Source of the DNA: Siphonodentalium dalli
Lineage: Eukaryota; Mollusca; Scaphopoda; Gadilida; Siphonodentaliidae
Assembly: GCA_032622095.1 (NCBI GenBank)
Contig: CP136061.1
Location: 18,416,991-18,480,990, forward strand
DNA length: 64,000 bases
Reading direction: 5' to 3'
A model generated the notes under the pieces. That model had not been told where the DNA came from. It worked only from the letters and a program-made list of their open reading frames with translations, and did not search any database. How positions within the stretch are numbered: the stretch's first letter is position 1; each line of letters opens with the position of its first letter. A program made the translations under genes and the position numbers. Positions 2,396 to 50,504 of the stretch are shown here, piece by piece.

Positions 2396-2494
2396 CTATG
2401 AGTATCTGTCAAGTTATCACACATATCCATGAAGTAGAGAGGGAAGACAACTCTATGCCAGAATATGAAACTACAGTCACACGCGGACCTCAAC
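2396..2494 (-). CDS. WASHC4: WASHC4 exon (visible exon 16), donor merges into a satellite
   Basis: 99 nt, acceptor TTTGTTTACAG, donor CATAG|GTTACA. It encodes [16 protein letters not shown] followed by NLTDTHR, matching human CDCCFLYWHRAVFPIY and NAVDAAR. The final bases ACTCATAG and the donor are the start of the 53-55 bp satellite that runs to the left edge of the window. Confidence 0.93.
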
Positions 2495-5400
2495 CTGTAA
2501 ACAAACAAATGAGAAATGGGTGTAAAAGTTAGAAAAGATTCTCAGGAATATGACATGAAATCATTAAATGTCAGAGGTCATTTAATAACATAGATATTGA
2601 TAGAAATTTATATGCTAACTTTGGAACATAATGAGGTATGACACTAACTCTAAGATTAATATATACTTTATTGGGTGAAATAAATCAACTAAGTTTTGTG
2701 GACATTTGTTTGGGTAATAATGGGCACAGGTAACTCATATTAAAACCTGAGCTAGCCGGTGGAATGCTCGCATGTTTTCAATATGTTTTTGGCTTGAGAA
2801 ATTGAAACTTTAGTTTGCACTGTCTAAGTAACAATCATTCTGCATCAAATAAATGAACATGCTTCAAAATATTGATTGTTATGATATGCTCTTGAGTTAT
2901 TTTCCCGATTAAACATAAATGAAATGAACGAATATATGGGACAAACCTTTCTCTGATGTCAACAATTGCTTCAAGTTTCTTGTAAGTGGCAACAAATCCT
3001 AGTAATTCATCATCTCTAAATGCTTTCTGTTGGAGAGAAATTAAAGTTGTTTCATGTTGTTAATAAAATTTCCATCAAATAATAACAATCAGAACAAAGT
3101 GCACTTGTAGGTAGCATAATAGGGTAAATGAAAAATACAGGACTATTAACCCTTTGTGCTGGTGCATCATTAAAGATCCTGCGCCATTGCATCCTCTTAT
3201 ATATATGCGAGTCTCACATGGGAAGCCTGGCATATATAAGAGAATGCACTGGCTTACAAGATCATTGCAAATATAGGCCAATTGTGTTATATATGCAAGG
3301 CACCCTATGGGCGACTCGCGTATATAAGAGAATGCATTGGCACAGGGTTTTCGCAAAATTTCAGGAAGCTCCAGTCATCAAGGGATTAAGAGATAGACAG
3401 AACACAATTTGCATTTTCATCAAGAATATTTTATCGAATGAGTTGCGGATGATGCAAGGATATATTACACGAAAGCCGAGCTTGAGTGACATGTGACTAT
3501 GTGTGGTCTGCAATGAGTTCGATATATTAAAGAATTTGATGCAAGTTGTGTTCCAATATAAGTTCAATCCATGAGTGTGACTACCATTGATACTATATCT
3601 ACCTTTGTTGTGGTTTAAGTCTGATGAGAAACAGGTAATTATCATCTGTGCATCACCCAAAGCGGATAGTTGACATTATGTAGGCCACATACGCCATCAC
3701 TCTTGGCAAAAACATCAACCCAAAGTTGTTCCAGCTTGTATTCCACTTATAGTATACAATACAGTCTAACAAAACTCAGACCGTGTTTCATTTCAATCAA
3801 CTTACGGTCTGAAGAATCTCATGGTTAAAATTAATTCAAACGAGAGAAATCTAGCCAATTCGCAGCAAGCGATGCGTTGGTTGACCAATGAATAGCTTCT
3901 AGCAAATTCAATTAAAATTCACTATTTCATACAAGCCACACCCGCGACATTTGACTGCAATCTCATGAAGTTATCATATAAACGACACGTTAGTGTCGCG
4001 TATCTTAACTGACCAAACGTCGTATGTTCAAAATCACAACTAACGTACGTTTATTCATAATTGGGAAATGTTCAGACAGAACAATTATACATAACAGAAT
4101 TGTATTTGCAAAGACATTCAAAAAAATACTATTTTCTCCTAACCTAGGGAATTTCCCCTTCATCTCTGAAATCAGATTCCGTGCGAGTGTCGTCAGACGT
4201 AGTTGAAAGTAATGAGACGGAGTCTGGATATATATCAGACTGTATACAATACTATGTATTCAATGGCTGGGATTGCACTCAATACATATGCCTCACATCA
4301 ATGGGTATGGAATAAAATGAGTAAACTCAAAATGCTCATCAGATACTATGCTGGATTCAAGCAATGACAATCAAAGATTTCTATCAGAAGACATGAAAAA
4401 ACATTGTAAGAGTCAATAACACTGTAGCTCAACATGGAGAGGGGATAATGCCATACATCACAGTCAATGAATTGATAAGGAATGCGTGGAAAAGTTGTAA
4501 TGTTCAAGTAATACCAGAGGTCAACACAAAGATCAATCTCAAGTTTGGGATCAATTAGATGAAAAATGTTCGCTGTAGGGCATGCCAAAGTATTTAGTCA
4601 TACGCAGAGTAAAATCCAAGATGGCTGCCAGCGGCCATGTTTTTTTATTGAAAATCATTGAAATTTGATAGCTCCCATCTTGAAGTGATCCTAAACATGC
4701 ATGTATATTTTCAAAACATTTCTCCAAAAAATGTGGGCTGCAGGGTGTGCTGATGGATTCAAATGTGAAATCCAAGATGGCCACTGACAGCTATGTTTTA
4801 AAAGGATCTTCAGAACAGTTTTGTAGCTCCCATCTAGAGGTCACCCCAAAAATCCATATGAAGTTTGATGACAATCAGATGAGGAATGTGGCCTGTAGTA
4901 TGTGCCAAACATAATTGTTGACGGATGTATATTTTCGACTATACATCTTGCTAATATGAATTATTATTCTTACCATCTGTGTGCTGACAGATAAAGCAAG
5001 TCTCATGATAAGTCTTCTATCTTTGGTTCCTGCAAGATCCATGTTCAGATGTTAATGTAGAGGCTAAGGTTTTCAGTATAGCAATTTAGGTTATATTTAC
5101 ACTCGAATGCAGAACGATGGTTGGTTGAAATCGCATTGTGTGAAATCGCGCACAGGTCCCAACTTGTTTCAATATTGTTTTGAAACAACTTATACAACAA
5201 GAATATTGTTGAAAATGGCGCTAAATGCTATTTTAATCTGATAGCTGAGCAGAGCTGAGTGTAAATATAAGGAATTGATGTTGATTTTGTGGCGTTCCAT
5301 AGAGAAAGGATGCAAGTTCCACACAAAAAGTCAGACCGACTTCGAATCATACTCCATGGGATGTCAGAATCAACATCCATTTGTTGACAAGCTGAAATTA

Positions 5401-8400
5401 AGCTTTTCAAATAGCATACACCACATGAATGAGTTGATTGATTGATTGATTCGGGTTTAATGTCACTTTCAGCAACTAAGGCCATATCAAGACATTGCCA
5501 GTTTTAGTGGGGGAGGAAATCCGCACACTTACTGATAATCTAACAGTTATTTCAATGACTGATAGACTCGTCAACCATGTGCGGCAAACCACCAGCCATT
5601 GGCGAGTAACTGGAAACTCTACCAGATAACGATTTCGAGTTACAACATCCCCAATGGAAACATGTGGATTTGAACCCTCATCACCAGCGCTTGGAGTTTT
5701 ACCGACTTCGAATCATACTCCATGGGATGTCAGAATCAACATCCATTTCTTGACAAGCTGAAATTTTGACTGAGCCATCGAGGCCCCCATATGAATGAGT
5801 GATCTCCAAAACAGGTAAATACTGTATATAACAATAGAAAAAATTTAAAGGTAACACAGGTCTTTAATTTACAATGAACTTTTGTATAGAGTATTAGATT
5901 TCTTTTAATAACTTTCATTTTTATCCAATTTATATTTAAAAAACAATTAAAAAAATTAAATACCGTGAGCCAAGATATATTGCCTATCCAAATTCTCCAT
6001 ACCGACGATAAAAACATGATATGACAAAATATTGTAAAAGCATGAACCCCTACTAACCTGGCCCATGTAATGCATTCTCAGCCAGCACCAATGCTGAGAG
6101 TACATCTAGTCGTCTCTCACTGTACTTCTTATCAGATGTGATTCGCTTCTGTGAATAAAATACAGAATGATGATGTAAAAGAATGTATTTGAGTGAATAA
6201 TATTATATGACACTGTAACTATTGTCAGAATGTTTATTATATCGATTCAATGGGTAAAGGAAGTACAGAAATCAAGATATCAAAATCAACTTACTTGATT
6301 AATAAAAATAGCTTAGTTTAAGGTATCTATCCATTTCCCATAACTTTGTCATTGTTTGTCATTGTGTAAACTTGATAAATCTAACAAGAGACATCCCCAA
6401 AATTAGAAAATTAGCTAAATCTGAATTCGATGGCTTGCACGCAACACTCGACACAAAAACCATGTCAAAAGCTCCAAAGATTCGTTGCTAGGCACTGGAA
6501 ACATGCACCACACGCCACTTGAAATGGTCTTATCAGAGAATCATATTGATGTTGGATGATAGTCATCATGATACATACCTTGGCCGTTTCTATACAGTTT
6601 ATAAGAATAAAGCTAAGATGCTGTGCAATGTGGTTGATGGATTCGGCAATCAGCATACTCCGTCTGTGGAATGTATGTTCAATTGCCTGTGTAAAAATAA
6701 AAATCTATTCAGTTCACTCTAATATATATGAATGCTATTATTAAGGTACCTCACAGTTATAAACCAAGATGCTTGACAAGGAAACTTCATAAGATAGAAC
6801 GGAAACACATTTTAACTTTCACAACTAAACCCCAATTTGAAATGAAAATACAATCCTGTAAAATCATTGGTTGTAATGTCTTTGATAATCACTCTCACAC
6901 ATAAACGGCCACCTTGCACATACATACATAATGAACATTTATGCAATAAAATGAATTCTTCCTAAAGTTGTTTCACTTCAGCCTATTTTAAATTTGCTGG
7001 TGAGAGAAGTGACATCCATTTGCATGACACACCAGGTCTGCTGGCGCTCACAGATTAGACAGATGTCATTTCTCTCAAGAAAACTGGACACGCAAAGTCC
7101 CAATGGCATGAACACTAAAATCAATTCCCGTCATCGCGTATATTGGTATAAGTTAATCCAAAGAAAAAAGTTGATGTCAATAATTACTATGTTTCATGAT
7201 GTCCTCTTGAAAATGTAGTGTAATACATGTCCATAAAGTTGAAAGAGAGTGTTTCAATTATTACATCATAAGCTGTAAATTCATGTAATATTATAAAATT
7301 TTGTTGTCACTTAATTAGCCATTAATGTTATACAGTCAATTCCAATTAATCGAATAACGGTTAATCAAATAATTCTATGAACACTTTAGGCCTTTGTATG
7401 CTTTTATTACTGTTTATATTGTCACTGTTATTTAATATTTATCCGTTATATGTTTTAAAATAAATCATGTTCTATAAAATGTCTTCCTCAATCACTCGAT
7501 GTGCTTCTATCGATCAAAGGTGAATAACTCTAACCAGTCCTTCAATGTAAACATTAAACATGTGCTTCTATCGATCAAAGGTGAATAACTCTAACCAGTC
7601 CTTCAATGTAAACATTAAACACGTGCTTTTATAGATCGATGTTTTTACAATTTTCCCTCGGTAAAAAGTAACAACAAACACACAATCTGACAATGGTATT
7701 ACAAATATTTTAATATTATATGAAACAATCAATAAAGAGAACAATATTATGAAGTAAATACACATTTAATAACAGGTATTTTAAAGTTTTTATATCAAAC
7801 AAACATCGGTCAAGTCAGTGGTACATCGTCAACTCGAAATTACGTTTTGGTGCATCGTCAACTCGAAATTGCAACGTTTTGGTGCAAATTCGTCTAAACA
7901 AATAATCGGTTATTCAAATAAAAAATTGCTGCACCGAGCATATTCTATTAACCAAAATCGACTGTACCTCGATAAACTAATCAGTGTCGGTGACTCTTCC
8001 AAAAACCATAGGTGTGTGAACTAGTTTCCGAGACAGAATTAGGTTTCTCAGCAATTGGATGCGTGCTTGACATGTGTTAGTTTCCTGGACATAATTGTTG
8101 CTCGCAAAGAACTTATATAATTTTATGGAAATATATTTGGAAAACTACACGTTCTTGACAAATATTGCGATTATATAATAAATAACTTCTCCTTAGATTA
8201 AGATATAGCTGAAAAGTTTAAAGACAAACATTATAGAATTTGTCTTCAAATTTTGGTTATAATTGCAATTAAAGAAGGGTTATTTCTTCATTAATTCAGT
8301 AGTAAGGCTGATACACTGCAATGTATAACAACAGATACATTAGAATCCAACTAAAAATTTATTGTTAATGTCTGCATGAGGCCATTCATTAAAGTTATTA

Positions 8401-11400
8401 TTCTTCCGACGGCTTACAACATGTACCTTGAGCAGCTCGAGAAGGCGACATAGTGACAGGACAGCAGTTCTAGTCATAGGTTTCTGTAAGGCCACGTGTA
8501 GATTCATCATCGTCCGAATCAGATGACTCAGATTATATGAGTATAGCAAGCCCTGAAATACAAGAAATCATGTAGAATAAACATCATACGAACCAGATGA
8601 CTCCGATTATATGAGCATAGTAAGCCCTGAAATACAAGAAATCATGTAGAATAAACATCGTCTGAACCAGATGACTCAGATTATATGAGCATAGTAAGCC
8701 CTGAAATATATGAAATCATGTAGAATCATCATCGTCCGTGTAAACCAAGTTAATGAATATTAATGATTTATAAAGACCAGGGTAATGAATAGTGATGAGT
8801 AGTGACCCGAAGAAACAGGGTACATTTGTTGTTATGGTCCTCCATCAGATGACATAGTAAAGAATATTAAAGAGTATATATCAGAGTAATGAATATTAAT
8901 GAGTATAGATGATACTAATGAATATTAACAAATACTGAACTGAATTAAAAGGGTACACGTTGTTGAGGTCTTCCATCAGATGATATGATAATGAATATTA
9001 ATGAGAGTATGTGACAATAATAACTATTAATGAATATAGATGATACTAATGAATATTGATTTGGTATCAACCTGAAGAAACATGGTACACCTGTGTTGAG
9101 ATCCTCCATCAGGTTACACTGTAAGGAATATTAATGAGTACAGATGATAGTAATAAATATTAATGAGTATAGACGATACTAATGAATATCGATAAATACT
9201 GACCTGAAGAAACAGGGTACATCTGTTGTCAAGATCCTCCATTAGATATCATGGTAAGGAATATTAATGAGTATATATGATACTAATGAATATTAATGAG
9301 TACTGACCTGAATGAACAGGGTACATCTGCTGTCGAGGGCCTCCATTAAATGACATGGTAATGAATATTAATGAGTATAGATGATACTAATGAATATTGA
9401 TGAGTACTGACCTGAAGGAACAGGGTACATCTGCTGTCGAGGGCTTCCATTAAATGACATGGTAATGAATATTAATGAGTATAGATGATACTAATGAATA
9501 TTTATGAGTACTGACCTGAAGGAACAGGGTACATCTGGTGTCGAGGGCTTCCATTAGATATCATGGTAATGAATATTAATGAGTATAGATGATACTAATG
9601 AATATTGATGAGTACTGACCTGAAGGAACAGGGTACATCTGCTGTCGAGGGCCTCCATTAGATATCATGGTAATGAATATTAATGAGTATAGATGATACT
9701 AATGAATATTGATGAGTACTGACCTGAAGGAACAGGGTACATCTGGTGTCGAGGGCCTCCATTAGATTACTCCCCCGTGACAGATTAGACTCCATCTTCA
9801 CCATCCACGCTGAGATGTTAGTGTTGTAAACCTGCAGGTCCCTGAAGAAGGTTGTCAATAATGATCTTCATGCATCAAATTAGACATAACAGTAGGGCCC
9901 TGCGAATATTCGAATTCGATTCGAAATTTCGAATCATTCCTGCGATTCGATTCGATTTTATTTCGAATCTTGTTGACGTTGTTTTCAAATTGAATATCTC
10001 GTGGCATTCTCGCCGACGGTTGAGTCAAATGATGTCGTTTACGGTCAGAGTTTATACCAGTTTCCTGTCGCACACACACGATTCGTCGGCTCGCCCGTTG
10101 ACCGAATAACACTATTGTGCCGTCACATGGGGTCTATAATGCTAGAAACAAGGTGATGACTCTGAGCACCTTTAGATAACGATGGTATTGTTGAATCAAT
10201 TTATTTTCTGCCACACAGATCAGCATACTAGTCTCTGAGCTATTAAATATGCTTCCGACAATCAAGATTTGAATTGATGTCGCCATTTGATTATAATCTT
10301 ATGCTCACAGCATGACTGTTCCTTGAACCTTTTAGTCGGACACAAAATTTGTGATATCAATTATAACATAGATATTATATAGCTACAACAACCACCACCA
10401 GCGGTGCAAATGACACGTTCCGATGTGTCATTCCCGATTTTGAGTGAACCCAACTTATTTCCGTATTACATCGTCCATATTCAGCTGTTTCCGTGGATAA
10501 AATGAATCAGTTCCGGTTGACAATCCCACAACCCACACAAGGGATTAATGCCGGTGTGTACGATGAATTCTCTCATTAGTATTTACTTTTGTTTATGAAC
10601 TCCTCACATGTCAACACAATGTCTGATTCGATTTGAATTCAATTCGAAATCGAATACCATTTACCTGATTCGATTCGGTATTTGATTCGATAGAAACAAT
10701 CCGATTCGCAGGGGCCTACATAACAGTTATAATTTTTCGATTTGGATCAAGTCCTGATGGTCAGGATGGATTGATAAATACACGAAATACAAATATACTG
10801 ACTCTATTTACTCTTAAAAGACTTACTAGCACCAAAGCTGTGGAACCTGTTCAGCTGTTTTCAACTTTGGGCAAAAAATTATACAAATGCTTTTATTTTT
10901 ACCATATCAGGAATGTAATTTAATGCTTGAGGCCTAAAAAAAATATTCTATGATTTGAAAGAGTTTTTCCGAGACACTAAGGTTGCGTAAATAAGTACTG
11001 GGGGTACTTTATGCAAATTTAACAAAAATTAATAATGCAAGATAAAAACATTTACATCTTAAGTGCTAACCTTTGAGGTATCAAGGAAATTCTAAGATAC
11101 TGAAGAAAATGCAAGAGAAAAACTTTATAGGTGCTCGAAACAAATATTTATAACATACATGTATATGTTACATTTTATAGAACATGTTTCCCACTTAAAA
11201 AAGCATCAAATGTTATTTACTTATTTGTATTGAAATCGCCTTGACATAGTTGTTATATATAGAAAGCATGACATGATTCAGCTGGGATAAAGCAGGGTTG
11301 TCAACTTGATGTCAACCTTGTTTCCTTTTCTGTTAGCATGTACCCCTGTAGTGCAAGCCCGAGTTTAATGTGCCTGTCATTTGCAGAATGAGTTCCCCAG

Positions 11401-14400
11401 AGGGTGAATTTAGTGATGCTATCCCGCATAGTGGGCTAGCATCACAAAATTCACCCTCTGGGGACCTCATTCTGCTTAGGCCTCATCTGCTATGGGAGGC
11501 ATAGACTCAGAATGAAGTTCCCAAATGGTGTACACCCATTGGGAACCTTGATTATGCAATGTCTCGTCTGCCAATTTGGGAATATAGACAAACTAAACTA
11601 AAACAAAAATAGAATCTAGTGAAAAAGTTTCTATAGAAATTTGATAATAAAGAAACTTTCCAGAGAAGATGAGGACTAAACAGAATGAGGTCCCAGAGGA
11701 TGAATTTAGTGATGTTAGCCCACTTTGTGGGACAATGTCACTAAATTCACCTTCTGGGGACCTCATTCTGTAGATGACAGGCACACTAAACTCAGACTTG
11801 CTGTAGTGTATCATTCTTCGAGGGTGCCAACTTGAGACTAACTATTGAATAGGTACAGTAATGCCCTAAGTAATCGAACTTTTAACCACAGCAGAATTAT
11901 GGGTAACTTTTTAGGATTTAGTCGGAAATATGGCTTGTTGCCATTCATCGGAAAGCTCTCGGGGAGAGCTTTCCGATGAATGGCAACAAGCCATATTTTC
12001 GACTAAATCCTGAAAAGTTACCCATAATTCTGCTGTGGTTAAGAGGTCGATTACTTTGGGCATTACTGTAGATTACACCATCTTACCACCATCAGACCCC
12101 AAAACTCAGCATATATTGGTTTGGATCACATAATAACTTGCCATAAATGCACTACAAGATAACACATAAATCTTGTAGATGGCACTGAGCAACACCACTT
12201 TACTGGGTGCAGTCTACTAGTTATTCTGTACCCACACTGTGCCAAGTATTTCATCAGGTGTTCATGTTGAATACTCTATATCATAAAGATGATACGAATG
12301 AATGTGAGCAATGTATTACCATGAGGGCCCTTCCATATTAACAATGTATTACCATGAAGGGCCTTCCATATTAACAATGTATTACCATGAGGGCCCTTCC
12401 ATATTAACAATGTATTACCATGAGGGCCCTTCCATATTAACAATGTATTACCATGAGGGCCCTTCCATATTAACAATGTATTACCATGAGGGCCCTTCCA
12501 TATTAACAATGTATTACCATGAGGGCCCTTCCATATTAACAATGTATTACCATGAGGGCCCTTCCATATTAACAATGTATTACCATGAGGGCCCTTCCAT
12601 ATTAACAATGTATTACCATGAGGGCCCTTCCATATTAACAATGTATTATCATGAGGGCCCTTCCATATTAACAATGTATTACCATGAGGGCCCTTCCATA
12701 TTAACAATGTATTACCATGAGGGCCCTTCCATATTAACAATGTATTACCATGAGGGCCCTTCCATATTAACAATGTATTACCATGAGGCCCCTTCCATAT
12801 TAACAATGTATTACCATGAGGGCCCTTCCATATTAACAAGCTCTGCTTCAATAGGGTCCTGTTGTGTGTTTATGTAAACTTGTCATTGATTATCTAATAA
12901 ACTTGTCATTGATTATCTAATAAACTTGTCATTGATTATCTAATAAACTTTATTGAACTTGAACTTGAACTTGAACACGTGATTATTTGACATTCCGGAG
13001 TACCCTACACTGGTTCTGTCTATGAGATAACTTGTTGTCAGCGCCGTGGAATATTTTTTATTACATATCTATCAACGTAATTCGCATGATCGCACGACGT
13101 TCCAGGCGTGTGATAATTCTCAGAATCGCACTAGTGCAATCTGTTGACGGAACTATTTCATTCAGTGTTGTTAGACTGGCTCTCGCTGTTACTATTCTTA
13201 CTTTTTCAACTTTTCAACACAAGGGCGACATCGCAGCGTGCTGATTGGGTTATATTTTTGGAAAATCTGGGAAAACCCAATTATAGACGGATAGACGGGC
13301 TCCCTGACAGGATATGAGCAATCTAATGGTGCTGTTTAAATATGTCAAACGTGGCGCCATTCGCGTCAGGGATGCACGGAAGGGGAGAGGGCCACCAATA
13401 TTTATAAAACTAATTTTAGCGGCGATTTCCACCAAATTGATGTATATTCTTTTTCATAATAAAAGGAATCTAATTGTGCGATTTAAAGACTCCAAATTGC
13501 TGTCTGATTGTTGCGTTAACCCTAAAATGCTGTTAAAACTCAATTAAATTCACATTTTCTGTACGGGAGATGTACGATTGTGAGTCAACTTACTATGATA
13601 CGGAGATAAGTAATAAAAATAGAACCGCATGAGTGTCTGGATTTTGATGAATTATCGCACTCGATTTGTTGGCGGAACGCGATACCTCTCGTGCGGGACT
13701 GCTCCGCCAACAAATCTCGTGTGATAATTTCGTCAAAATCCAGAACTTGATTTGCGGTTCTATCTATATCCCACATGCCAGGATTGGATTAGTTATCTTC
13801 TACCAACATTTTTACACAAACAATTTTACTTGTATGATCGTATTACTTCAGAATTGATGTCCATAACTCATAAATATGCAGAATGTCAGGAACCTTGAAA
13901 ACTGAACATGTAAACCAGAGTGAATGGCCCATCACCAGTGAAAATTACATTAATTATTTTTTGCAACCTGTGAGTGTTCCATAATTTGGCCTAAAAAAGA
14001 CTGTTGTCTCCACTAACACAATCGACCCTATTTCAAATAATAATAATGATAATAAACAGGTTTCTTATATAATGCCAAATCCCAGTTGGTTCAAGGCACT
14101 ATAAAACCGCCTAGTCTATAAAACCTAGCACTATAAAACCGCCTAGTCTATAAAACCTAGCACTATAAAACCGCCTAGTCTATAAAACCTAGCACTATAA
14201 AACCGCCTAGTCTATAAAACCTAGCACTATAAAACTGCCTAGTCTATAAAACCTAGCACTATAAAACAGCCTAGTCTATAAAACCTAGCACTATAAAACC
14301 GCCTAGTCTATAAAACCTAGCACTATAAAACCGCCTAGTCTATAAAACCAAGCACTATAAAACCGCCTAGTCTATAAAACCTAGCACTATAAAACCGCCT

Positions 14401-23400: not shown

Positions 23401-26400
23401 ACATGTAGCCAATATAGAAAGTGAAAATGACAAACAACTACCATGTACATCTATACAATTAGCCAAAGGATATTTTTGGCTGGCATCAATACTGCCAAAG
23501 ATAAAAAAATTCACATTTACCATTGCATCCTAAGAGAAAATACTATCCATTCAAAAAGCACCAAGTCTGAATTTTGTGTGTCTGACATTCGCAGAATGAG
23601 GTCCCCAGAGGGTAAATTAAGTGAGGCTATCATGATTCATGCACGGCAGGCTAGCATAACCAAATTCACCCTCTGGGAACCTCATTCTGCTTAGGTCTCA
23701 ACTGCTATGGGAGACCTAGTTCCCCAGTTGAAGTTGGTGATATTCACCAATTAGTCACCTCCTTTTGCATTTTATCTTCTGCAAATTAGAAGATATAGAA
23801 ACTTTCCAGAAGGGAAAAAGTAACTAAAAACAATGTTAGTTTGAGACAATGGATACTTCCGAGAAGATGAGGCCTAAGCAGAATGAGATCTCCAGAGGGT
23901 AAATTTGGTGATGTTAGCCCGCTGTGCGGGATAGCATCACTAAATTCACCCTCTGGAGACCTCATTCTACAAAAGACAGACATGCTATTTGCAGGCTTGC
24001 ATTTGACAAAAAATATTTCCATTTGGCAAAAGTAAAGTTTGGGCCAGCGCAGACCCTGGAACTTGCTATACGAGCAGGCTATGTCTAACAGTGGAACTAA
24101 CATGGACATGCAGATATTAGAGACCTTGAGAAAATATACATGAACATTAATACAAAAATGATAGGATTTCTACAATTCCATTGTGATATTAGTGTTTCCT
24201 GTGCATGAAGATCAATTAAATATAAATCAAAACAGGCTGAATTATTTGAAATTGGATGAGTAAATTTTCATAAAACTAAGAAAATAATATACCAAAGATT
24301 TGAAAGGGCTAAAAAATCAGTAAAAATTTGTCAGTTCATAACATTTTTCATATTAGTCACTTTTCAGTAGTGTCACAGTGGCAAAGAAATTGTTTCATGT
24401 TTTATCATGATAATTGTATTAAGGGGTTTCCATGCCTGAGCTATGTCATGAGGTGGAAAGTTTAGATGGACCTACACAGAAAACTACTTACTTGTTAAGC
24501 TTGTACACCACATGAAGGAATCTATACTATCTGAAGACCACATCAAGCATTTTATATAATAATAAAAATGTCAAAAAGATGACTTTAACTCTTTCGCTGC
24601 CAAACGCGCATAAATGCGAAATTCGTAGACGCTGCCAATCGCGCATTTTTGCGAATTTAGTATGTAGTCTAATGTATGGGATATAACTCTATTCTTTCCG
24701 GCATGTTTGAAAGTGTACAATGTATTTATCTGTGGTACTGTTGCGCGCGAACAATTTAAAGCGACAATGTCCTCAAGGTCATGCTATTTCTGACGTTATG
24801 GAGGTACAGTCAGAGCCGGAATATTGCATCATTGTTATTAGCACGTGGTTATCAGTCGAAAATGGCTGCTCGCAAAAGACTCAGGACTGAAGAAGTTATT
24901 GTTATTACCTCTATACTCTAATGATCGAGGGGCGCCTGTGGCGCATAAGTTACTTATACCTATTATTTGTGTGGGCAGTAGCCTCTATTATAGGGGCGCC
25001 TGCGGCGCATAAGATACTAGGGTGGCGGGATGGGGTGGTGGGTGGGTAACTAACCTCTATACTCTAATGATCGAGGGGCGCCTGCGGCGCATAAGATACT
25101 TATACCTATTGTGTATGTGGGCATGCAGTAGCCTCTATAGGGGCGCCTGCGGCGCATAAGATACTATGGGTGGCGGGATGGGGTGGTGGGTGGGTAACTA
25201 ACCTCTATACTCTAATGATCGAGGGGCGCCTGCGGCGCATAAGATACCTATTATTTATAATACACCTTTACTGGTTTTGAACAACCCTTGTCTATTGTGT
25301 CGTTTTCCAGTGGTGATAACAGGCCACTAAATTAATTATGCTGGTGAGTTGACCATGCGTATGCCCGCGTGACCCATATAATTCACATAAATCATCGGCC
25401 GTCAATATCACGTGACTTATAAGGGGCGGAGCAGGGTCATATGTCCCCCTGCAGGTATATATACATATGGGTATGGTTATATTATATATATCTATACTAG
25501 TATTTGGAATTGTACCTATCAGGGAATATCCAAGGAACCAAAGCACGAACTCAACAAAGTGCACCATTGTATCCCATTTTGCTACAAATAGGTGGCAACT
25601 TGCATACATCCAAGATGGACGCCAAGGTCACGTGACCTATTCTATGTCCAACGTGGGTTCATATAGGTTACTCCCGTGTACCTTACTGTTGGACATCGTA
25701 TAATTGGGTTGAATATTATAAAACAAACAACACACCCATTCATACCCACACAAACTGTACATATACAGGCAAATAGCCACTAATCCAAGATGGCCGCCAA
25801 TGTCACTTGACCTTGGTGGGCGTGTCCACGGCGGCATTCGACAAGGTATACCTATGTCTATATACATGTGAAGTTTCAACTAATTATATTAGAAACTGCT
25901 TGAGATATAATGTATTACCCATATATACCTGAAATACATGGATATATGCATAGGATGCGTGGCACTGGGGGCTACGCCTGTGGTGGCAGGTGGCAGCGAA
26001 AGAGTTAATCATGGTTTTAGAAGAGAAATTTTCCAAACAGCGTTCTCAGCAAATACACAAATTGAGTGTAAATGGGGTGTACTTATTTAACAAATTAAGT
26101 AGTTTTCTGTGTAGGTCCATCTAAAGTTTCCACTTTCTGACATAGCTCAGGCGTGGAAACCCCATAAGATAATCACTGAAGATAAGCGTCCTTGCAAGTC
26201 TGAACAAATGAACATGATTTTTAAAAGATCTCTTTGTGTGATAAAACAATGAGGTGTGATATTAAACACAATACATTTTTATTAATGAATCGACTTATAT
26301 TACCTCTTCCTGATGTAAGAATAGAAAAGAAAATGTGAATATTATACTACATAATCAGATAAGAAATTATGATATTAATAGTTATTGTAGAAGAATGGTA

Positions 26401-29400
26401 GTAACATGTTATGACATTGATGGCCGGAATCAATAAAGTCATGAGGGGACGTAATTAATTGTAATTAATTGTTGAAAATATGGAGCGCATGCTTGGTGTA
26501 GTAAAACATTTGCAAGAATAATAGTATTTAGTAGTTATAAAATCAACACGATGTGAACAAATAATCAGTAATAAATTTCATTCTGAAAAACTTGAAGATA
26601 ATGTCTCCCAGATTGCAATCAATAAATTATGGATATATCATCAGTTCAGTTAAACTTCGTTAAGTCAAAACGCAAGGGACCGTTTGATTACTTCGAGTTA
26701 CCCATGTGTTCGACTTAACCATTTCGACCATTTGATGACCCAACTAGTCGAATTAATTGCGACCCGAAAATAATTCATTTCGTCTGTCAACACTATACTA
26801 ATCCTCACAAGGTGGAAATTGACCCACGCACCTTCTTAATATGCTAAATAAATAATGCATTAGGACAAACAAAGACTCTAAGAAACTTTACAGCTTTTTA
26901 TGCAATTGAATGGAAGCACAGAGTTAAAATCACATGGCGTGCATCGCCGACGGCACTTCGACTTAACCATAGTAATTAGTGTTATAAGCTGGCTGGTGGG
27001 ACCAAATTTCATTTCGCCTTAAGCAGGAATTTCGACTTATCCACCTTCGACTTAACCATGATTATTATATTGGCTTTGCACACAAGCTCAGCCGGGACCA
27101 GGCAATGGCTTCGACTTAAGTGGGGTATTCGAGTTACCGACGTTCGACTTAACGATGTTTGACTGTATTCTATATTATAAAATTTATAATGTTGCACTAT
27201 TCATGGGAAAATTGTCAAAACGACATTGGCTTCAGATCTCACAATTTAAATATAAACAATATTGAAGAATGTTTGTAATTGTCGTCTGCTTTTTAACCTG
27301 TTCGCTATTAACTATTAAAAGTGCACGTAATGTGCTATATGGTCCATAGTACCTACAGACCTACTTCAGCACACTAGCAGTAGGCCATTATTTATAACTG
27401 GAACTCGGAGATTGGTGCATCGGAATAACTGTATCTAGAACTTTCAAACAGTGTAAAAAGTCGTTACTTTACCATCTCCACTGAGAATATTTATTTTGTC
27501 TTTTAGCTCCTAAATTCAACGCAAACGGTGCCAAATCAAGGGATGAAGAAGTGCGCACATTCAAGATAGGAACGGATCAAAATTCAAGGCAAGAAGTGAT
27601 AGCCAAATTAACACTTTACCCTTATGCCCTGTGCCAATGCATTCTCTTATATATGCGAGTCGACCATAGGTCGCCTCGCATATATAAGAGAATGCAATGG
27701 CCTAAAAAAAATCTTTTTTTTAACACTTTTTACCATTTTTTCTTACATTCTTTAACAATTTTATCATTTTTTCTTACATTTTTTAACAATTTTTATAATA
27801 TTTTTCTACATTCTTTGACAATTTTATCATTTTTAATATGTGTTAAGCCAATGCATTCTTTTATATATGCGAGGCGACCTATGGTCGACTCACATATATA
27901 AGAGAATGCATTGGCACAGGGCCGTTCTGTTGGGTAAAGGGTTAAAGACAGGAAATATTACCCAAATTCAAGCTTGGAAGGCAGGGCCAAATTCATGGCA
28001 GAAAAGACACTAAAATGCAAAGCAAGAATGGAAGAGATGCATCAGGGAGAGCTTACTTGGTCAGCTGTTGGTTTTTCTGTTGTAGCCACGCCTGTTGTTG
28101 CTGTTGAACAGCAACCTTGGCCTTCCTATCAAGTGCTTTGTCCATATGTGGGAGTTTACTGAGCAAAAAGTCATTCGGAAACCACATCACATTGGCTATT
28201 AGGTGGACTGCTGGCACCTGCAATAGAAAGAGAAAACTACATCACATTGGCTATTATGTAGACTGCTGGGACCTGTGGTAGAAGGCATTAGGTCATAATG
28301 CAGTGACAAAGAATCCACATCACATTGGTTATTAGTTTTATGGGTAACCTATAAGTGGTAAGTGGGTGTCTGACCAGGTAACACATCATGTAGGGTTAGC
28401 GAAAATCACACCAAGCATCCCGGGATGAGAGTAAAAAGTCTAAATGAAATGCTGGCTGACGGCCCGAAGGCTTTTTGATATGTCAAATTAGGATACGCTG
28501 AAAGAAAAATGGCCTGAAACCAATTAGTCATATACATTTAATCACAAAGTGAAGTTGGTACCAAATGTATGGATGACAAAAGAAAGAAGAGGGAATCTGC
28601 AAAGCATATGAAAATATGGGGGGGGGGAATAATGCAGTGACAAAGAAGCCACATCACATTGGTTATTAGGTGTATTACTGGCACTTACAACAGAAAGCAT
28701 TTTGGTTCATTGGACATTTGATGATTTGAGCATTAACACTTCCATGACTGAAGCTTCCTGAAGGTTTACGAAAACCCTGTGCCAATGCATTCTCTTATAT
28801 ATGGTAGTCTCCCATAGGGAGTCATGCATATATGGGAGAATACATAGGCCAAAAAATATTTGCCTTGACCATGTCAGCCAGTGCATTCACTTATATATGA
28901 GAGGCTTGCTATGGGAGACTAGCATATATAAGAGAATGTACTGGCACAGAATCTTAAATGCTACACCTTCACAGATCCTGTGAAAGGGTTAAAACATTTG
29001 TGAATCAAAATGTATGAACAAAGTTATGAAGAGCTAGTGGGCAATCAAGCATGGCTTAGTTCAATGTAGAGTTTACATGGTACATGAGGAATGCCAAGTG
29101 CCAATTGCACTATTAACCCTTTCAGCATTAAAGATCCTGTGCCAGTGCATTCTCTTATATATGTGAGTCTCCCATAGGTAGCCTCACATATATTTTATAA
29201 GACAATGCACTGGCTGTCAAGGTAAATATTGTTAGGCCAATGTATTCTCTTATATATGTGAGGCTCCCAATGGGAGACTCGCATATATAAGAGAATACAT
29301 TGGTACACGGTTTTCGCAAAATTTCAGGAAGCTCGATCCAGTCATGGAAGGGTTAAAGGAGCATAGTTGTTATATATAGTTTATCACACTCACCAATGTG

Positions 29401-32400
29401 AGATGACTTACCTTTTTATACATGTCCCACAATGTCTTGAATGTCTTCTTGTCCGTCACATGGAAGATCTGATAGTGAAGAACATACAATCCACACAACC
29501 CAACAAACTTATATCTCTGGTCCATCTCGTTTGATTCACCTGATGGATAAAAAATACGATTTATATCTCCGGTCCATCTCGTTTGATTCACCTGATGGAT
29601 AAAAAATACGATTTATATCTCCGGTTCATCTCGTTTGATTCACCTGATGGATAAAAAATACGATTTATATCTCCGGTCCATCTCGTTTGATTCACCTGAT
29701 GGATAAAAAATACGATTTATATCTCCGGTCCATCTCGTTTGATTCACCTGATGGATAAAAAATACGATTTATATCTCCGGTCCATCTCGTTTGATTCACC
29801 TGATGGATAAAAAATACGATTTATATCTCCGGTCCATCTCGTTTGATTCACCTGATGGATAAAAAATACGATTTATATCTCCGGTCCATCTCGTTTGATT
29901 CACCTGATGGATAAAAAATACGATTTATATCTCCGGTCCATCTCGTTTGATTCACCTGATGGATAAAAAATACGATTTATATCTCCGGTCCATCTCGTTT
30001 GATTCACCTGATGGATAAAAAATACGATTTATATCTCCGGTCCATCTCGTTTGATTCACCTGATGGATAAAAAATACGATTTATATCTCCGGTCCATCTC
30101 GTTTGATTCACCTGATGGATAAAAAATACGATTTATATCACCGGTCCATCTCGTTTGATTCACCTGATGGATAAAAAATACGATTTATATCTCCGGTCCA
30201 TCTCGTTTGATTCACCTGATGGATAAAAAATACGATTTATATCTCCGGTCCATCTCGTTTGATTCACCTGATGGATAAAAAATACGATTTATATCACCGG
30301 TCCATCTCGTTTGATTCACCTGATGGATAAAAAATACGATTTATATCTCCGGTCCATCTCGTTTGATTCACCTGATGGATAAAAAATACGATTTATATCT
30401 CTAGTCCATCTCGTTTGATTCACCTGATGGATAAAAAATACGATTTATATCTCCGGTCCATCTCGTTTGATTCACCTGATGGATAGAAAATACGATTTAT
30501 ATCTCCGGTCCATCTCGTTTGATTCACCTGATGGATAAAAAATACGATTTATATCTCTGGTCCATCTCGTTTGATTCACCTGATGGATAAAAAATACGAT
30601 TTATATCTCCGGTCCATCTCGTTTGATTCACCTGATGGATAAAAATACGATTTATATCTCCGGTCCATCTCGTTTGATTCACCTGATGGAAAAAAAAATA
30701 CGATTTATATCTCCGGTCCATCTCGTTTGATTCACCTGATGGATAAAAAATACGATTTATATCTCCGGTCCATCTCGTTTGATTCACCTGATGGATAAAA
30801 AATACGATTTATATCTCCGGTCCATCTCGTTTGATTCACCTGATGGATAAAAAATACGATTTATATCTCCGGTCCATCTCGTTTGATTCACCTGATGGAT
30901 AAAAAATACGATTTATATCTCCGGTCCATCTCGTTTGATTCACCTGATGGAAAAAAATACGATTTATATCTCCGGTCCATCTCGTTTGATTCACCTGATG
31001 GATAAAAAATACGATTTATATCTCCGGTCCATCTCGTTTGATTCACCTGATGGATAAAAAATACGATTTAAATCTCTAGTCCATCTCGTTTGATTCACCT
31101 GATGGATAAAAAAAATGATTTATATCACTGGTCCATCTCGTTTGATTTACCTGATGGATAAAATATAAGAATTAAATCTCTGGTCCATCTCGTTTGATTC
31201 ACCTGATGGATAAAAAATATGTTAACAAACTTATATCTCTGGTCCATCTCATTCGATTCACCTGATGGATGAAAAATATGTTCATCCACTTTGGATATCA
31301 GAAAACATAGTCGTAAGAGCGACGTATTTTATTCCAAAGTGTTAAATCAGGTGTGTGAATTTAAAAAAAAAAAAAATCTACAAAGGCAAACATGTTTTGT
31401 AGCAAGATCTTTCATCGTCATAGACCACTATGCCATAACGCAGGGCATTTCAGAAAAGTAAGCTATACAATGATGTTGGGAAGTAGTTAGACAAAACTAA
31501 AACATAATTATGAAGTACAGGAATTTTGGCAGTAATGCTATTTCATTTGCGAATTAATTGGAATAATTCCCTGAGAAAGAATCATAGGAACTATATTTTT
31601 GCCGGCAGATTTGAGTGAAGCAGTTGTGTTAAACTTTCTTTCCAATTAATTGACCGGTGAAGCCAGTTGCTAATTTTTAAAACCCTCCCTCCACTTTTTT
31701 AGTTGTTGGAAATACAGGATTAATGTCTTTGCCTTTTGCCTACATGTATATGCGGTTATTGTGCCTCAAAAAATTATCACTCACATATTTGTATTTGTTA
31801 CTACTACATTTATTGTATCAGCTTCCTGTAAACAATTAAGCTTTTCTAAACAGGTAGCTAAAAACACATTTCAGTGTTTGTCTTTCACTCTAACCCTGTG
31901 GGATAAAAGCTATATAAAATTGCCTACCCATTAAAATTGCCTAACCATTAAGATTGTTTTCCCATTAAGATTGCCTTGCCATTGACCTTACCTAACCATT
32001 AAACTTATCTACCCATTAAGATTGCCTACCCATTAACATTACCTACCCATTAACATTGCCTACCCATTAACATTGCCTACCCATTAACATTGCCTACCCA
32101 TTTACATTGCCCACCAATAAAGATTGCATACCCATTAACATTGCCTACACATTGACCTTAACTAACCATTAAACTTATCTACCCATTAAGATTGCCTACC
32201 CATTAAGATTGCCTACCCATTTACATTGCCCACCCATTAACATTGCCCACCCATTAACATTGCCTACCCATGAAGATTGCCTACTCATTAACGTTACCTA
32301 CCTATTAAGATTGCCTACCCATTTACATTGCCCACCCATTAACATTGCCTACCCATGAAGATTACCTACTCATTAACGTTACCTACCTATTAAGATTGCC

Positions 32401-35400
32401 TACCCATTTACATTGCCTGCTCATTAAGATTGCCTACCCAGAAAGATTGCATACTCATTAACGTTACCTACCTATTAAGATTGCCTACCCATTTACATTG
32501 CCTGCTCATTAAGATTGCCTACCCAGAAAGATTGCATACTCATTAACGTTACCTACCTATTAAGATTGCCTACCCATTTACATTGCCCACCCATTAACAT
32601 TGCCTACCCATGAAGATTACCTACTCATTAACGTTACCTACCTATTAAGATTGCCTACCCATTTACATTGCCCACCCATTAAGATTGCCTACCCAGAAAG
32701 ATTGCATACTCATTAACGTTACCAACACATTAAGATTGCCTACCCATTAACATTGCCTGCTCATTAACATTGCCTGCTCATTAAGATTGCCTACCCAGAA
32801 AGATTGCATACTCATTAACGTTACCTACACATTAACATTGCCTACCCATTAACATTGCCTGCTCATTAACATTGCCTACCCATGAAGATTGCCTACCCAT
32901 TAACATTGCCTGCTCATTAACATTGCCTACACATTAACATTGCCTGCTCATTAACATTGCCTGCTCATTAACATTGCCTGCTCATTAACATTGCCTGCTC
33001 ATTAACATTGCCTACACATTAACATTGCCTGCTCATTAACATTGCCTACCCATGAAGATTGCCTACCCATTAACATTGCCTACACATTAACATTGCCTGC
33101 TCATTAACATTGCCTACCCATGAAGATTGCCTACCCATGAAGATTGCCTACCCATTAACATTGCCTGCTCATTAAGATTGCCTACCCAGAAAGATTGCAT
33201 ACTCATTAACGTTACCAACACATTAAGATTGCCTACCCATTAACATTGCCTGCTCATTAACATTGCCTACCCATGAAGATTACCTACTCATTAATGTTAC
33301 CTACACAATAAGATTGGCTCCCCATTAAGATTGGCTATCCATTAACATTGCCTACCTGTTAACATTGCCTACCCATTAACATTACCTACCTATTAAGATT
33401 GCCTACCCATTAACATAACCTACCCATTAACATTGCCTACCCATTAACATTACCTACCCATTAACATTACCTACCCATTTACATTGTCCACCCATTTACA
33501 TTGTCCACCCATTAACATTGCCTACCCATTAACATTGCCTACCCATTCTCGTCTCCAGGTCTGTAGCATACTCTCTGATGTTGATTGCAAACTCTTCAGC
33601 AAAAACAGCATTCTTTGACACATGAACCCTTGCATCATCATATGGCTTCTCAACGCAATTCTGAAACAATTAAATAAATTGAGAAATTGCAGACAATGCA
33701 AATTATACTCATTATAAAAGAACAAACACAAATCAAATATGAGAAATTAAGTTTGTTAGTCTCTCTCTGTTTTTTTTTCAAAACAAGGAAGACAAAGATA
33801 AATAAAGATATCTTAAATACTGTCTTCTCTGGCACCTCCCTCAAAAAGAGGGCCTCATCAAATAAATATAAATACTGTCTTCTCTGGCACCTCCCTCAAA
33901 AAGAGGGCCTCATCAAATAAATATAAATACTGTGTTCTCTGGCTCCTCCCTCAAAAAGAGGGCCTCATCAAATAAATATAAATACTGTCTTCTCAGGCTC
34001 CTCCCTCAAAAAGAGGGCCTCATCAAATAAATATAAATACTGTGTTCTCAGGCACCTCCCTCAAAAAGAGGGCCTCATCAAATAAATATAAATACTGTGT
34101 TCTCAGGCACCTCCCTCAAAAAGAGGGCCTCATCAAATAAATATAAATACTGTGTTCTCAGGCACCTCCCTCAAAAAGAGGGCCTCATCAAATAAATATA
34201 AATACTGTGTTCTCAGGCACCTCCCTCAAAAAGAGGGCCTCATCCAGGGTCCGCGCTGGACCGAAATAAACTTTTGCCAAATGAAAATATTGTTTGCCAA
34301 ATTCTGTTATAATTTGCCAAATGCTACCATTTTCTGCAACATTAAGTCTTATGTTTCGACACTCCCGGTTTTGAACGACTTTTGATAGCGATAGGAAAGC
34401 AGTTAGTTAATTAGTATTTTTCATACAACAATAAACCAACCAAAGAACAATAAAATGATAGTAGGGTTGCTTCCAGTCTGGAGTAAACTGCATACCCACA
34501 TATAAAAAATAGTGGGTCTGACGACCTTTCGTTCAGTTTTCATTTCCCAAATCCGGGATTCCTTGTAATTACCGCCAATCAAAACTTAGCTCCAAGAAAT
34601 GTGTGCCCCAATAAAAAACTAGTAACATGTCACGTGCTCTTGGTGTGGAAATTCCGAAGGTGTGGCTAAAGGTTGTTAAAAATAGTATACATGACGTCAT
34701 GTTATACCGGAAGAGAAATTCACAAATCGACAAATAAAGTAGATTGTTGACGAGCGGTCGAAAGTTTAAAATCAAGAATCACCGGAATGTGGATTGCAGG
34801 CAACTGTAATTTGGGTACAAGTGGTACAATCTTTGGAGCTAATAATACGGCTGTGTAATGTCAGATGGGGTTCGGTGGCGTTGGTGGTAGAATTGTGTTG
34901 CTCTTCGCTCGTTTTGCCTGCGGTGGTGCTACGGTACTGGGTAACTGATAGATCGTTTTTTTTATGTCAAGGTACTTTTTTTTTAGTTCTGTAGTTGTTT
35001 TATCAGATAGTCCCGACATTCATGTATTTTTTATTCGTGGCCGTTGATTTGTGTTATTTTTTGACAACATGGGCGACAAATCGCCTGGCCAATCTAAAAA
35101 TAATTCGTTCTGAGAACTTCTGAGTCCAAGAAATCCACATAAATTGACATTTTTTATAATTTCAAGTAGATCTGTCTTAGTTATTGTACATTTTATTTTG
35201 GATCCCGGAAGCTGTTTCCCTTTATTGTCAGTAAAATAACCGCCCAACGAAAAGTCACAAACCCTGCAACTATTAATTCCGATTCTTAGAATCAGCTTCA
35301 CAGGGTTGAAGCGGCCATGACGGCACTGGCACGTGACCATGTTTACACCTGTCAATCACAACTAATTTCAGATTTATATTTAGCGCGGTGTGACGTAATT

Positions 35401-38400
35401 TGGGGGAAGCCCACAACCGTTCAGAAATGAAAAGTTGATGGGAATGCAATAGACTCAGTATCATTATGAATCTGAGTGTATGTTTACATAGACTGGGTTG
35501 CTTCATCAGGATTAGCTACGTAAACATCACCACACTAAATATTTGTAATCCCTCCACCCATCAATACTATATATAATAGCTGTCAGATTAACTGCATCTT
35601 AATAGAGTTGTTAACTTTTCCTAAACCATATAAAACACCACTGATATAATTATATTGTAAGAGTTTCCTGAAATGAATGATATTGGTTGACCACTATTTG
35701 TGAGCTGTCTTGAGGAATTAAAAATGACTTGCCAAAACTTTTGCCAAATGAAAATAGTTTTTGCCAAATGTGAACAATTTTTGCCATTGGCAAATTTGGC
35801 AAGTGGCAGCGCGAACCCTGGCCTCATCAAATAAATATAAATACTGTCTTCTCTGGCTCCTCCCTCATCGCCAAAAGGAGGGCCTCATCAAAACATTTTA
35901 TTTGCAATTTTACCCAGAATTTTCAAAGAGTTCAAATATAATTCTCCAATTTACCCATAATTAGAAATTTAGATAGGTTTCTGTTGAATACATAATGGGT
36001 AAACGGCATTGGATGACAGATTCTATACATTTGTTTATCACAAAATAACCCATACATCCATTAGTTTCTAGAATTATCATACAATTTCCCATACATAATT
36101 GCCTGAGAACTCACCTGAAATATAAAACCATCTAGAAGTTGACCCTCGATTGACATCATCAGCTTCTCAAAGGGACGTAACTTGTCTCCAGAGATGTTGA
36201 ATCTGCTTGTATCATGATGTACAGATTTCAGCATTCTAAAATACAGTAAATGAAAATAATTACAAAAACACCCCTTTATACCGGAGAAAAAAGCTGCAAA
36301 AAATGGTATATTTACCTATATAGAGGGTTTCCTCAGGGAATATAATTGGTTATAGTAGAATTGAGCATTCAAATAACCACTGTCAATACCATGATTCAGG
36401 ATGACTTCAGAAAACCTATAATTATGGTAACTGAAACATTTGCATGCAAAATCTAAGTTTAAAATCTAACAACGGTCGCAGTTGAATCACATGTATTTTG
36501 ACAGGGTATTATTTTCAGTTTTTGGCATCATAAAAACACTCACCTTTTGTATAGTGTCCAGTGGTCCTTGAGCATACCTTGATTCTCTACGATAGCATCC
36601 AGTGTTATCAACACACCCAACATGTCACCCAGATGCTCAAATACAACCTGGAATAGTCAATATTGTGTTTATTATATTTGTATAATCTCTGAAAAAGATA
36701 TTATTTATGCAAAATACAAAAACACGATACAGAGATATCACAAAACATTCCCATTGGTTACTGACAATTTACAGAGCACAGTATGATGTGATTCAAGTTT
36801 TTATTGCAAATCTATATTTATGTAGCATCTTAAAATCAGCCCCGAGTGGGCCCTGTTATAGAAAAAAAGGCCTTTTTTTTAGGCCCCGTGCCATTTACAA
36901 TCCGCAAAGACTGATAATTAACTCACTTGGAAATGTACATCCTCCATACTCATGAATCGCTGCCCTCTGTAAAAAAAAAAAATTCTTGTTATCAATATTG
37001 TTCAAATATAATGTTACTAGCTGAAACATGCTCCCCGCGACATCCAACAAAATAACGGGTACAAGTCTACTACAGGCTTATATTAGAACCAAATAAGTCC
37101 AATATGAACCAATGTCAATATTTGGGTCCAATATGAACCTATTTACCCAAGGATTTATTGAATTAGCAACATAATATGATCAATATACATACAAGAGTAG
37201 GATCTGTTTGTCATGTGCGCTAAGCGACCACAGGGGCTTTGCCCCTTAAAGCCCTTAACGGACAGAGGGGCCACAGGCCCTCTGACGCTGAATAAAGGCT
37301 CCCGAAGGCCACAGTGAAAACAAATCTATAAAGAACATACATATGTGCTTATTTGTATTTTGTGGGAGTTATTATTTTTTCACACTCAGATGTATCTATA
37401 TCTACAATTGAATGAATGAATAAATGAAAAACATCAACATTCAATCCACAACCTGTAAATTTATTACTGTAAATGTACCTCTTTATTAAAAGATTTTTAT
37501 AATTCAGTATGTTGTTTTGTCTTCCTGGAATTCCTAGAATAAACTCATTAAAGTTCTTGTCTGAGCAACACATCTCAATAGTGTGCTGAAAGCCAATCTG
37601 ATAACTGCTGATAAAATTCTTTGACCTTGGGGCAATCCCAAAATATGTGCTTAATTGTTTCTTCATTTTGATTACATCTCAGACATGTACCATCTTGTAC
37701 AGATCAAAACTCTTTTAAATTCACGTAGAGGAGTAAAACACATTTATAGGGTTCTATCAACATGACCTTGTACATTCTCTTATATATGCAAGGCTCCCTA
37801 TGGGAGACTAGAAATAGGGAGCCTAGGCTGCCTAGCATATATAAGAGAATGCACTGGCACAGGATCCCTCCAAATCAATAATAGACCATTCCGATGTACA
37901 CTTTTTAACTGACTGGGAGAATCCATTTAGTATAGAAAGGGTTAACATAAAAGGAATTGATATGAGACAAAGAATGAGAATATGTGTTACTTCGTTCCTG
38001 AGTGTAGAATTGCGAGTTGTTGTATTACACTCTTGACAACCTCAAAGCATCTGTTAACAAAGCATGATAGTTCCTGTAGTAACGGCATCATTCTCCCCAT
38101 CTGAATCTGAGCCTCTCCATCATCCAGTCCTTTATCTGACTCTAAAATTATCCAACATAATAAGGTATTATAATTAGGGCTGTAATGGCATCATTCTCCC
38201 CATCTGTATCTGAGCCTCTCCATCATCCAGTCCTTTATCTGACTATAAAATTATCCAACAGTATACGTATTATAATTAGGGCTGTAACGAGTCATCGTGA
38301 ATTCAATATATATTGTGATACCCTAACAAACAATACGCGATACGGGAAATCAAGTAATTATTTAACATGGGCATGAGTTAAAAGAGCAAAACCGGCCATT

Positions 38401-49165: not shown

Positions 49166-50504
49166 GATACATGTACTGCATGACTATCGAAGGCATATAG
49201 CTCAGAGGTCAGCCCACAAACAAACTGACCTATCTGCTCCTCAGTTAGCTTATTATTGTAAAATTAGACTCATGCCTCTTTCGTTGAATTATCAAAACGC
49301 TAATATCCAAATTCAACTACAATAGTTAAATCCAACTGAAATATTTGAATCAGGATGTACAAGGCAGGCTGCATGAACATTCGGAAAGTGGGCGTGTCAT
49401 TTTGATTATTCGCGTACTATTTCGTGGTTTGTGATCAAATAATCGCTTCATAGCACATCCTACTATTAGTAGAACAGACAGATAATCTGATCAGTCTTAA
49501 ATATAGGACGTACTAAGAGAACCGTCGTCAAACTTGTCGAACTCCCAACCAGAATTGTCACTGGTAGTGACCATTTTGAAAATTTCTCACTGTCACGTGA
49601 TTAGAGTTGGTCGCCGCAAGTAGGCGCCGATATTGCGCTATGGTGCAGAACAAATGCGGTACGGTATCGGATAATTCGTTCCATCGCCATAATATAACTT
49701 CTCCGTTGCCATTTGAATATAATGTTCGCTTTAGTTCAAGTTCAATCCCCAGAGAGACCTATTCGTCAACAAAATTCGAAAAAATATTGCCAGTGCTTCT
49801 TCAGCATGGAACAACGAAGAGCGTTCATTGTAATTACTGATAGGCTTAACAATAAAGAGCGTTTTCGTATGTGAGAAAATTTAAACGACTGGAAAATTTG
49901 TATCATACAGATCACATTGCCTAATGTGCTCTATGTTATACAAATTATGTCTGTAGATCAGAATTGTGTGTAATTATCGAACTATACATCCCAAATAAGA
50001 CGACACCGGACTTAGGACATGTTTAGGGGACACATAAACATAAAATTTCCCCACCAATGAATCCCTAGCAATCCTTAGAGCCGCTCTTGTATAATATATG
50101 TGTCTGTTTGTCGTCTGCTCATTTCCCATGAACATATCCCTCTAAATGAACAATACACAATTCCAATGTCTACTTTTTAACTGGATGGGAGAATCCATTT
50201 AGCAAAGACATGTTTAAAGTAATTTAATCATCAAGCAGCAAATTACAAATATAGCAAGCCCTAGGCCTACTTGATTTCCCTATCAGGTTCCGAGAATCAA
50301 GATATAAGAATAAAATACATGAGTTCATATTGCTTTTCAGAAAGATTCCTTAACTTAGGAGTTACCAGCGGAAAACCAATCCAATTTAAAACTCCAAGTA
50401 GAAAAGGGCCCACATGTATTGTTGACATGTGGATGTCACATTTTGTCATTCAATAAGGGTTTATGTTCAATGTATGTAGTTATGTAGGGCTGCAGTAACA
50501 CATG
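49166..50504. other. No gene recognised
   Basis: Single-copy-looking AT-rich DNA. 50144-50215 resembles the right part of the truncated MITE at 37870-37941 (TTTTTAACTGGATGGGAGAA). Confidence 0.4.

Follow-up and report, generated by a model that had tools for sequence, protein, structure and literature searches.

Seven splice junctions of a molluscan WASHC4 gene lie within tandem arrays that are probably mirages

In a 64,000-nucleotide stretch of the Siphonodentalium dalli genome (contig CP136061.1, positions 18,416,991 to 18,480,990; the window), the N-terminal part of WASHC4 is encoded on the minus strand, within the first 49.6 kb. Seven of the 33 visible exon borders of this gene lie inside tandem repeats that span the exon edge, the splice site, and the adjoining intron. 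These arrays are probably mirages, a class described in amphioxus: minisatellites that grew from chance tandem duplications across a splice junction and were tolerated. Such a duplication can be tolerated because one full exon stays joined to one splice site. At all seven junctions the unit holds an exon edge of 5 to 63 bp together with splice site and intron, and one intact coding copy stands at the exon side with the reading frame kept. Many of the other copies, here called decoys, retain their AG or GT, but at exon 9 one of two decoys does so and at exon 3 none of one.

Tandem Repeats Finder (TRF) with default settings reported six border-spanning arrays, and a relaxed score added the seventh, at the exon 9 acceptor. 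In a further test with the Basic Local Alignment Search Tool (BLAST), each border ±50 bp was compared with 3 kb on either side (E < 0.01, at least 18 bp). Spanning copies were found at the identical seven borders, and none were found at the other 23 of 30 borders or at three further borders upstream. A preliminary description of this DNA had named the same seven junctions, and all were where it had placed them. We keep its exon numbers, which are one too low when every coding exon counts because two further coding exons exist upstream. All arrays described below are on the minus strand, and copy numbers include the coding copy.

Three of the arrays are at donors. The exon 7 donor array (31915..33547; TRF) has 96 copies of a 17-bp unit, of which just 5 bp are exonic and 12 bp intronic, and GT is retained in 74 of its 95 decoys. 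The exon 10 donor array (8783..9767; TRF) has nine copies, with a 104-bp unit that includes 44 exonic bp. On its exon side are five 104-bp units, the coding copy among them, followed by three of 132 to 133 bp and one that is cut; seven of eight decoys keep GT. The exon 16 donor array (1..2400; TRF) is built of units of about 56 bp, 12 of them exonic, and has at least 43 copies. This count is a minimum because the array runs past window base 1. All 19 of its modal-length copies (of 43) have GT. We rejected 27 CT sites that had been counted there as decayed donors, which proved to be off-register matches.

The other four are at acceptors. At exon 3 (38079..38289; TRF and BLAST), a duplication gives two copies of a 103-bp unit with 63 exonic bp, and its single decoy lacks AG at the homologous position. 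The exon 8 array (29509..31278; TRF) consists of 34 copies of 52 bp, 31 of them exonic, and AG is retained in 33 of 33 decoys. Exon 9 has a degenerate tandem copy at an offset of 55 bp, 39 of them exonic (28179..28283; relaxed TRF and BLAST). A further spanning copy at 28645-28697 and a partial copy at 28311-28335 bring its total to three spanning copies plus one partial, and AG is kept in one of two decoys. The exon 11 array (8497..8738; TRF) has three copies of 74 bp with 56 exonic bp, and both decoys keep AG. The copy numbers first reported for exons 3, 8, 10, and 11 stand; the present counts are 96 for exon 7 (about 95 before), three spanning and one partial for exon 9 (four before), and at least 43 for exon 16 (about 44 before). 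Each unit, 17 to 104 bp long, contains its own exon edge, which bears out the proposal that the arrays are unrelated in unit size and had separate origins. A near miss is a 19-bp × 2.5 repeat at 39816-39863, which lies wholly in the intron, about 10 bp before the exon 2 acceptor.

Of the 1171 bp of intron 10, 1127 bp (96%) are array sequence, and in intron 7 the share is 84% (3367 of 4003 bp). As a result of its two arrays, intron 7 carries 34 AG acceptors and, with the true site added to the 74 decoys, about 75 GT donors. The 17 visible coding exons of the gene, from 49574 to 2389, form a single open frame. The 15 exons E2 to E16 (2389..39806, minus strand; gene model, Pfam, and Haliotis asinina match), joined at GT-AG sites, encode 558 amino acids with zero stops. 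Their product matches Pfam WASH-4_N over profile positions 38-572 of 572 (1.4e-200) and is 69% identical to Haliotis asinina WASHC4, with which it aligns with a single one-residue gap. Thus, the coding exons are intact and in phase, as had been claimed. The two upstream exons were located by tblastn with molluscan WASHC4, splice sites, and frame, both on the minus strand: the first coding exon at 49514..49574, with its start codon at 49574, and the second at 41140..41279. We looked for local copies of the donor border of the first and of either border of the second, and found none. In a tree of 34 homologues, hand-picked from 120 listed of 340 found, this WASHC4 is nested among the molluscan sequences, next to those of gastropods and bivalves, with its class unplaced.

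At six of the seven junctions, splicing to the next decoy in place of the true site would introduce a premature stop. For the donors, the stop is 11 bp past the exon 7 site and 63 bp past the exon 10 site. For the acceptors, it comes 68 bp (exon 3), 53 bp (exon 8), 33 bp (exon 9), and 96 bp (exon 11) into the extended reading. At exon 16, the next decoy produces a frameshift, and the first in-frame stop, 54 bp past the donor, lies inside any extension longer than one unit. Nevertheless, the decoy splice sites are not purged. We compared conservation of the splice dinucleotide with that of the remaining unit in the four larger arrays, on modal-length copies only. It was 1.00/1.00 versus 0.986 at exon 8 (29 of 34 copies), 1.00/1.00 versus 0.959 at exon 16 (19 of 43), 1.00/1.00 versus 0.965 at exon 10 (5 of 9), and 0.95/0.82 versus 0.88 at exon 7 (95 of 96). 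Decoy GT and AG are therefore about as conserved as other unit positions, which is expected if the spliceosome ignores them. The spliced copy is most likely the one that adjoins unique exon sequence, with the others skipped.

The good retention of decoy GT and AG in four arrays might instead indicate function: the redundancy of splice sites could buffer WASHC4 splicing or regulate it. We think this very improbable. Homogenisation alone would yield a conservation that is about the same for decoy sites and the remaining unit, splicing to the next decoy would end the reading early at six junctions and shift the frame at the other, and in the copies of exons 3 and 9 the splice sites are partly decayed. 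A collapse or inflation of the repeats during assembly is hardly credible either. Arrays of this kind are difficult to assemble, and the BflGb6 array of amphioxus was seemingly misassembled in a draft, according to the part of PMC3087553 consulted. However, the copies here diverge: those of exon 7 are about 81% identical, and exon 10 has two unit sizes. Copy numbers could be off, yet the arrays themselves are hard to attribute to assembly error.

If the arrays are mirages, junction-spanning tandem duplications would arise by happenstance, and seven of them would have gathered in WASHC4. Slippage or unequal exchange may then have raised the copy number of some into the tens, and each expansion would lengthen its intron. 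The exon-proximal copy would be the one that is spliced, while the decoys would drift and homogenise with their own arrays. The copy at the exon edge can also join array turnover, as the exon 10 array indicates (see below). Judged from the sequence, the arrays are probably neutral.

We asked how often arrays placed at random would fall on borders. In a seed simulation, one seed unit per TRF array was placed at random in the gene, never entirely within an exon. Here 29 borders were counted, as the outermost one (exon 2 acceptor) coincided with the edge of the span. There is also a repeat of 629-664 bp at 20682-22894, which was excluded from this simulation and from a second one described below. 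With default TRF (17 arrays, or 11 without intron 9), there were 6 border overlaps versus 0.53-1.03 expected (P 5e-6 to 1.4e-4). With relaxed TRF (28 arrays, or 18 without intron 9), there were 7 versus 0.69-1.38 expected (P 5e-6 to 1.5e-4). The excess persisted with or without collapse of each array to one unit and with or without the 18-kb intron 9. When only arrays of at least 200 bp were counted, there were 6 versus 0.42-0.83 expected, with P ranging from 0 of 200,000 runs to 1.5e-5. The second simulation covered the full set of 33 borders with 24 arrays (the 25 clusters without that of 629-664 bp), from default TRF only and so with exon 9 outside it. The expected number was 0.55 without collapse (P 1e-5) and 0.78 with it (P 6.6e-5).

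As a further control, the 7 of 30 borders with BLAST copies were compared with 1500 random intron-interior points per variant. Strong copies no more than 200 bp away were found at 1.2-5.7% of intron points (P 5.7e-8 to 1.2e-3), copies within 600 bp at 6.5-11.7% (P 0.0027-0.055), and any copy within 3 kb at 8.7-16.5% (P 0.013-0.21). None of these P values takes account of the gene having been picked for its striking look. Introns that bear arrays at both ends (introns 7 and 10) were not above chance (P 0.11). The border excess holds for tandem copies within this WASHC4 gene.

This excess suggests that the duplication process may be biased toward splice sites, which had been offered as the alternative to neutrality. 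For example, DNA structures linked to transcription or splicing could form at exon borders and make them hot spots for array birth. The six to seven seeds at borders where 0.53-1.38 were expected, the strong-copy control, and the repeated finding of mirages in amphioxus genes (in the literature excerpts discussed below) all fit such a bias. However, this is a single gene chosen for its look, and under a loose definition of a copy (anywhere within 3 kb) the excess weakens to P 0.013-0.21. Moreover, the position of the unit edges relative to the junction varies, from 5 to 63 bp on the exon side and from 12 to 60 bp on the intron side, and double-ended introns are no more frequent than chance predicts. 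We regard a junction bias as unlikely, if far from negligible. One post hoc gene, and a control that is non-significant under loose criteria, are too little to establish such a bias; what stands is the excess over random placement in this gene.

It is also conceivable, and a little easier to accept, that arrays are common throughout the genome and that WASHC4 is simply the tail of a random distribution, noticed because it is striking. There are 25 default TRF clusters within the 49.6-kb gene span, and under loose criteria local copies occur at up to 16.5% of intron-interior points. Even with arrays collapsed, the within-gene P is about 1e-4 or less, so that chance would require many genes to have been examined. 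On balance, we doubt it.

Some observations weigh against the arrays being simply tolerated by-products of chance. The junction excess is larger than a purely random seed model predicts, and plain neutrality of array placement may therefore be incomplete. Scored with a position weight matrix (PWM) made from this gene, the exon 7 donor ranks last among 15 (-4.4), and 56 of its decoys score at least as high. By the same measure, 30 of 33 exon 8 decoys and 5 of 8 exon 10 decoys equal or exceed the true site. Because most decoys of these two exons do so, site strength alone is unable to select the right copy.

The exon 10 array bears on the history of the exon edge. The coding copy and its four nearest decoys, all 104-bp units, read M-E-A-L-D, while the four distal decoys, in units of 132 to 133 bp (the last one cut), have an aspartate codon at the alanine position. 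Among the 34 homologues, the residue at this position is D in 28, E in 4, N in 2, and A in none. This indicates that the alanine codon at the exon edge is derived, by a D-to-A change, and that the distal decoys keep the ancestral codon. As they do, the array started before the D-to-A change, and since the exon and the four nearest decoys have the derived codon in common, a later five-copy block includes the exon. This is a sign that array turnover has involved the exon 10 edge: either a change in the exon was re-amplified outward, or a decoy overwrote the exon. The similarity of exon 10 decoys to the coding copy declines with distance (rho -1.0, n = 8), which comes partly from gaps and the longer distal units. 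No such gradient toward the coding copy is seen in the exon 7, 8, and 16 arrays. At exon 8, the farthest decoy is closest to the exonic part of the coding copy (0.95 over 38 bp versus 0.82-0.87 in the other 32), and 27 of 33 decoys have a Q-to-R change, while the farthest still reads the original residues. This pattern indicates that the exon 8 coding copy remained outside homogenisation.

The preliminary description knew of no described class of splice-junction minisatellites. That claim does not survive, as there are mirages in amphioxus and two human examples in CBS. The passages of PMC3087553 consulted report that intron-exon boundaries of amphioxus globin genes have undergone minisatellite-like duplication, for which the term mirages was taken from work on Adh3. 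The units are 10-72 bp in Adh3 and 150-160 bp in the globins, splicing seems undisturbed in both, and mirages are proposed there as a source of new introns. An excerpt of PMC3902484 describes amphioxus PGBD5 repeats of 60 and 108 bp that overlap exons 3 and 4, and cites mirages in Adh and TnC, with splicing undisturbed. As far as these passages go, the amphioxus mirages are like the WASHC4 arrays in that their units, at acceptors or donors, combine exon edge, splice site, and intron and vary in size, many decoy signals are present, and the coding exon is intact. The WASHC4 arrays differ in being in a mollusc and not a cephalochordate, in numbering seven in one gene, and in reaching 96 copies. 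The same passages mention one junction in each of BflGb6 and BflGb9, and exons 3 and 4 of PGBD5. They also state that the BflGb6 cluster boundary was left out of homogenisation (PMC3087553), as was the exon 8 coding copy of WASHC4; the exon 10 coding copy, unlike BflGb6, lies within a homogenised block.

Both human cases are in CBS and are known to us from parts of two papers. The first is a 31-bp variable number tandem repeat (VNTR), c.1444_1467+7 (PMC2630376), at exon 13/intron 13 (PMC5188458), with 16-21 copies. Like the WASHC4 arrays, it repeats 24 bp of exon and 7 bp of intron including the donor in tandem; unlike them, it is a human polymorphic site at a single donor. CBS activity is lower with more repeats (PMC5188458, citing Lievers 2001). 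The second, 844ins68, is a 68-bp duplication of the intron 7/exon 8 junction in which splicing takes place at the more distal site, beside the intact rest of exon 8 (PMC2630376, which says "donor" although this junction is an acceptor). Unlike the larger WASHC4 arrays, it has two copies only and is polymorphic. Intron gain through AG/GT segments (Rogers; Gao and Lynch, as cited in the part of PMC3087553 consulted) likewise involves tandem duplication that copies splice signals within a gene. However, WASHC4 shows no new intron, with its one-residue gap to Haliotis and each array at one intron edge. We therefore rejected intron gain by tandem duplication, since every array touches one intron end and there is no intron-derived insert relative to Haliotis. 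Among the literature matches listed, we noticed no report of junction arrays in molluscs; one abalone gene with an intronic minisatellite was there. Thus, the class is already known, and what looks unusual is that so many arrays occur in one gene and that an exon edge shows signs of turnover.

The window holds other repeats as well. A 5.4-kb array of ~32-bp units (GCACTATAAAACC...) at 14096-19523, with a GC skew of about -0.5, occupies much of intron 9 and touches no exon. Intron 6 has a 55-bp × 7.8 array (33814-34244). Its translated motif, YLYLFDEAL..., recurs singly at ~35721-35922, about 1.5 kb away and also in intron 6, so this array may have come from a dispersed repeat and not from a junction. 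A 23-bp unit (AGACAGGCCGAGTGGTTAGTGTT) is present in seven perfect copies at 41753-41913; we see in it a resemblance to a tRNA D-arm/A-box. Across the window, no RNA feature was reported by Rfam or by ARAGORN (bacterial code). Three dispersed short arrays (48467-48551, 59981-60090, and 61230-61358) have a similar 16-bp near-palindromic unit (GGTTCGTTATTCCGAA + complement). At the window end, a C-terminal exon of a cytochrome P450 is on the minus strand (63543-64000; Pfam p450, 2.4e-48).

These arrays would extend mirages, which are little known and described mainly in a chordate, to molluscs, and a single gene offers seven separate cases at both donors and acceptors. Intron 7 of WASHC4 is a natural assay of splice-site choice, in which presumably one donor-acceptor pairing gives normal protein. 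The two tests used here turn the impression that mirages look common into something that can be counted in any long-read genome, namely an excess of arrays at borders over shifted borders. A broader idea, to which we give little credence at present, is that splice junctions are hot spots of array birth in some animal genomes, where the arrays lengthen introns, exchange with the exon edge, and can rewrite junction codons, of which exon 10 would be a case.

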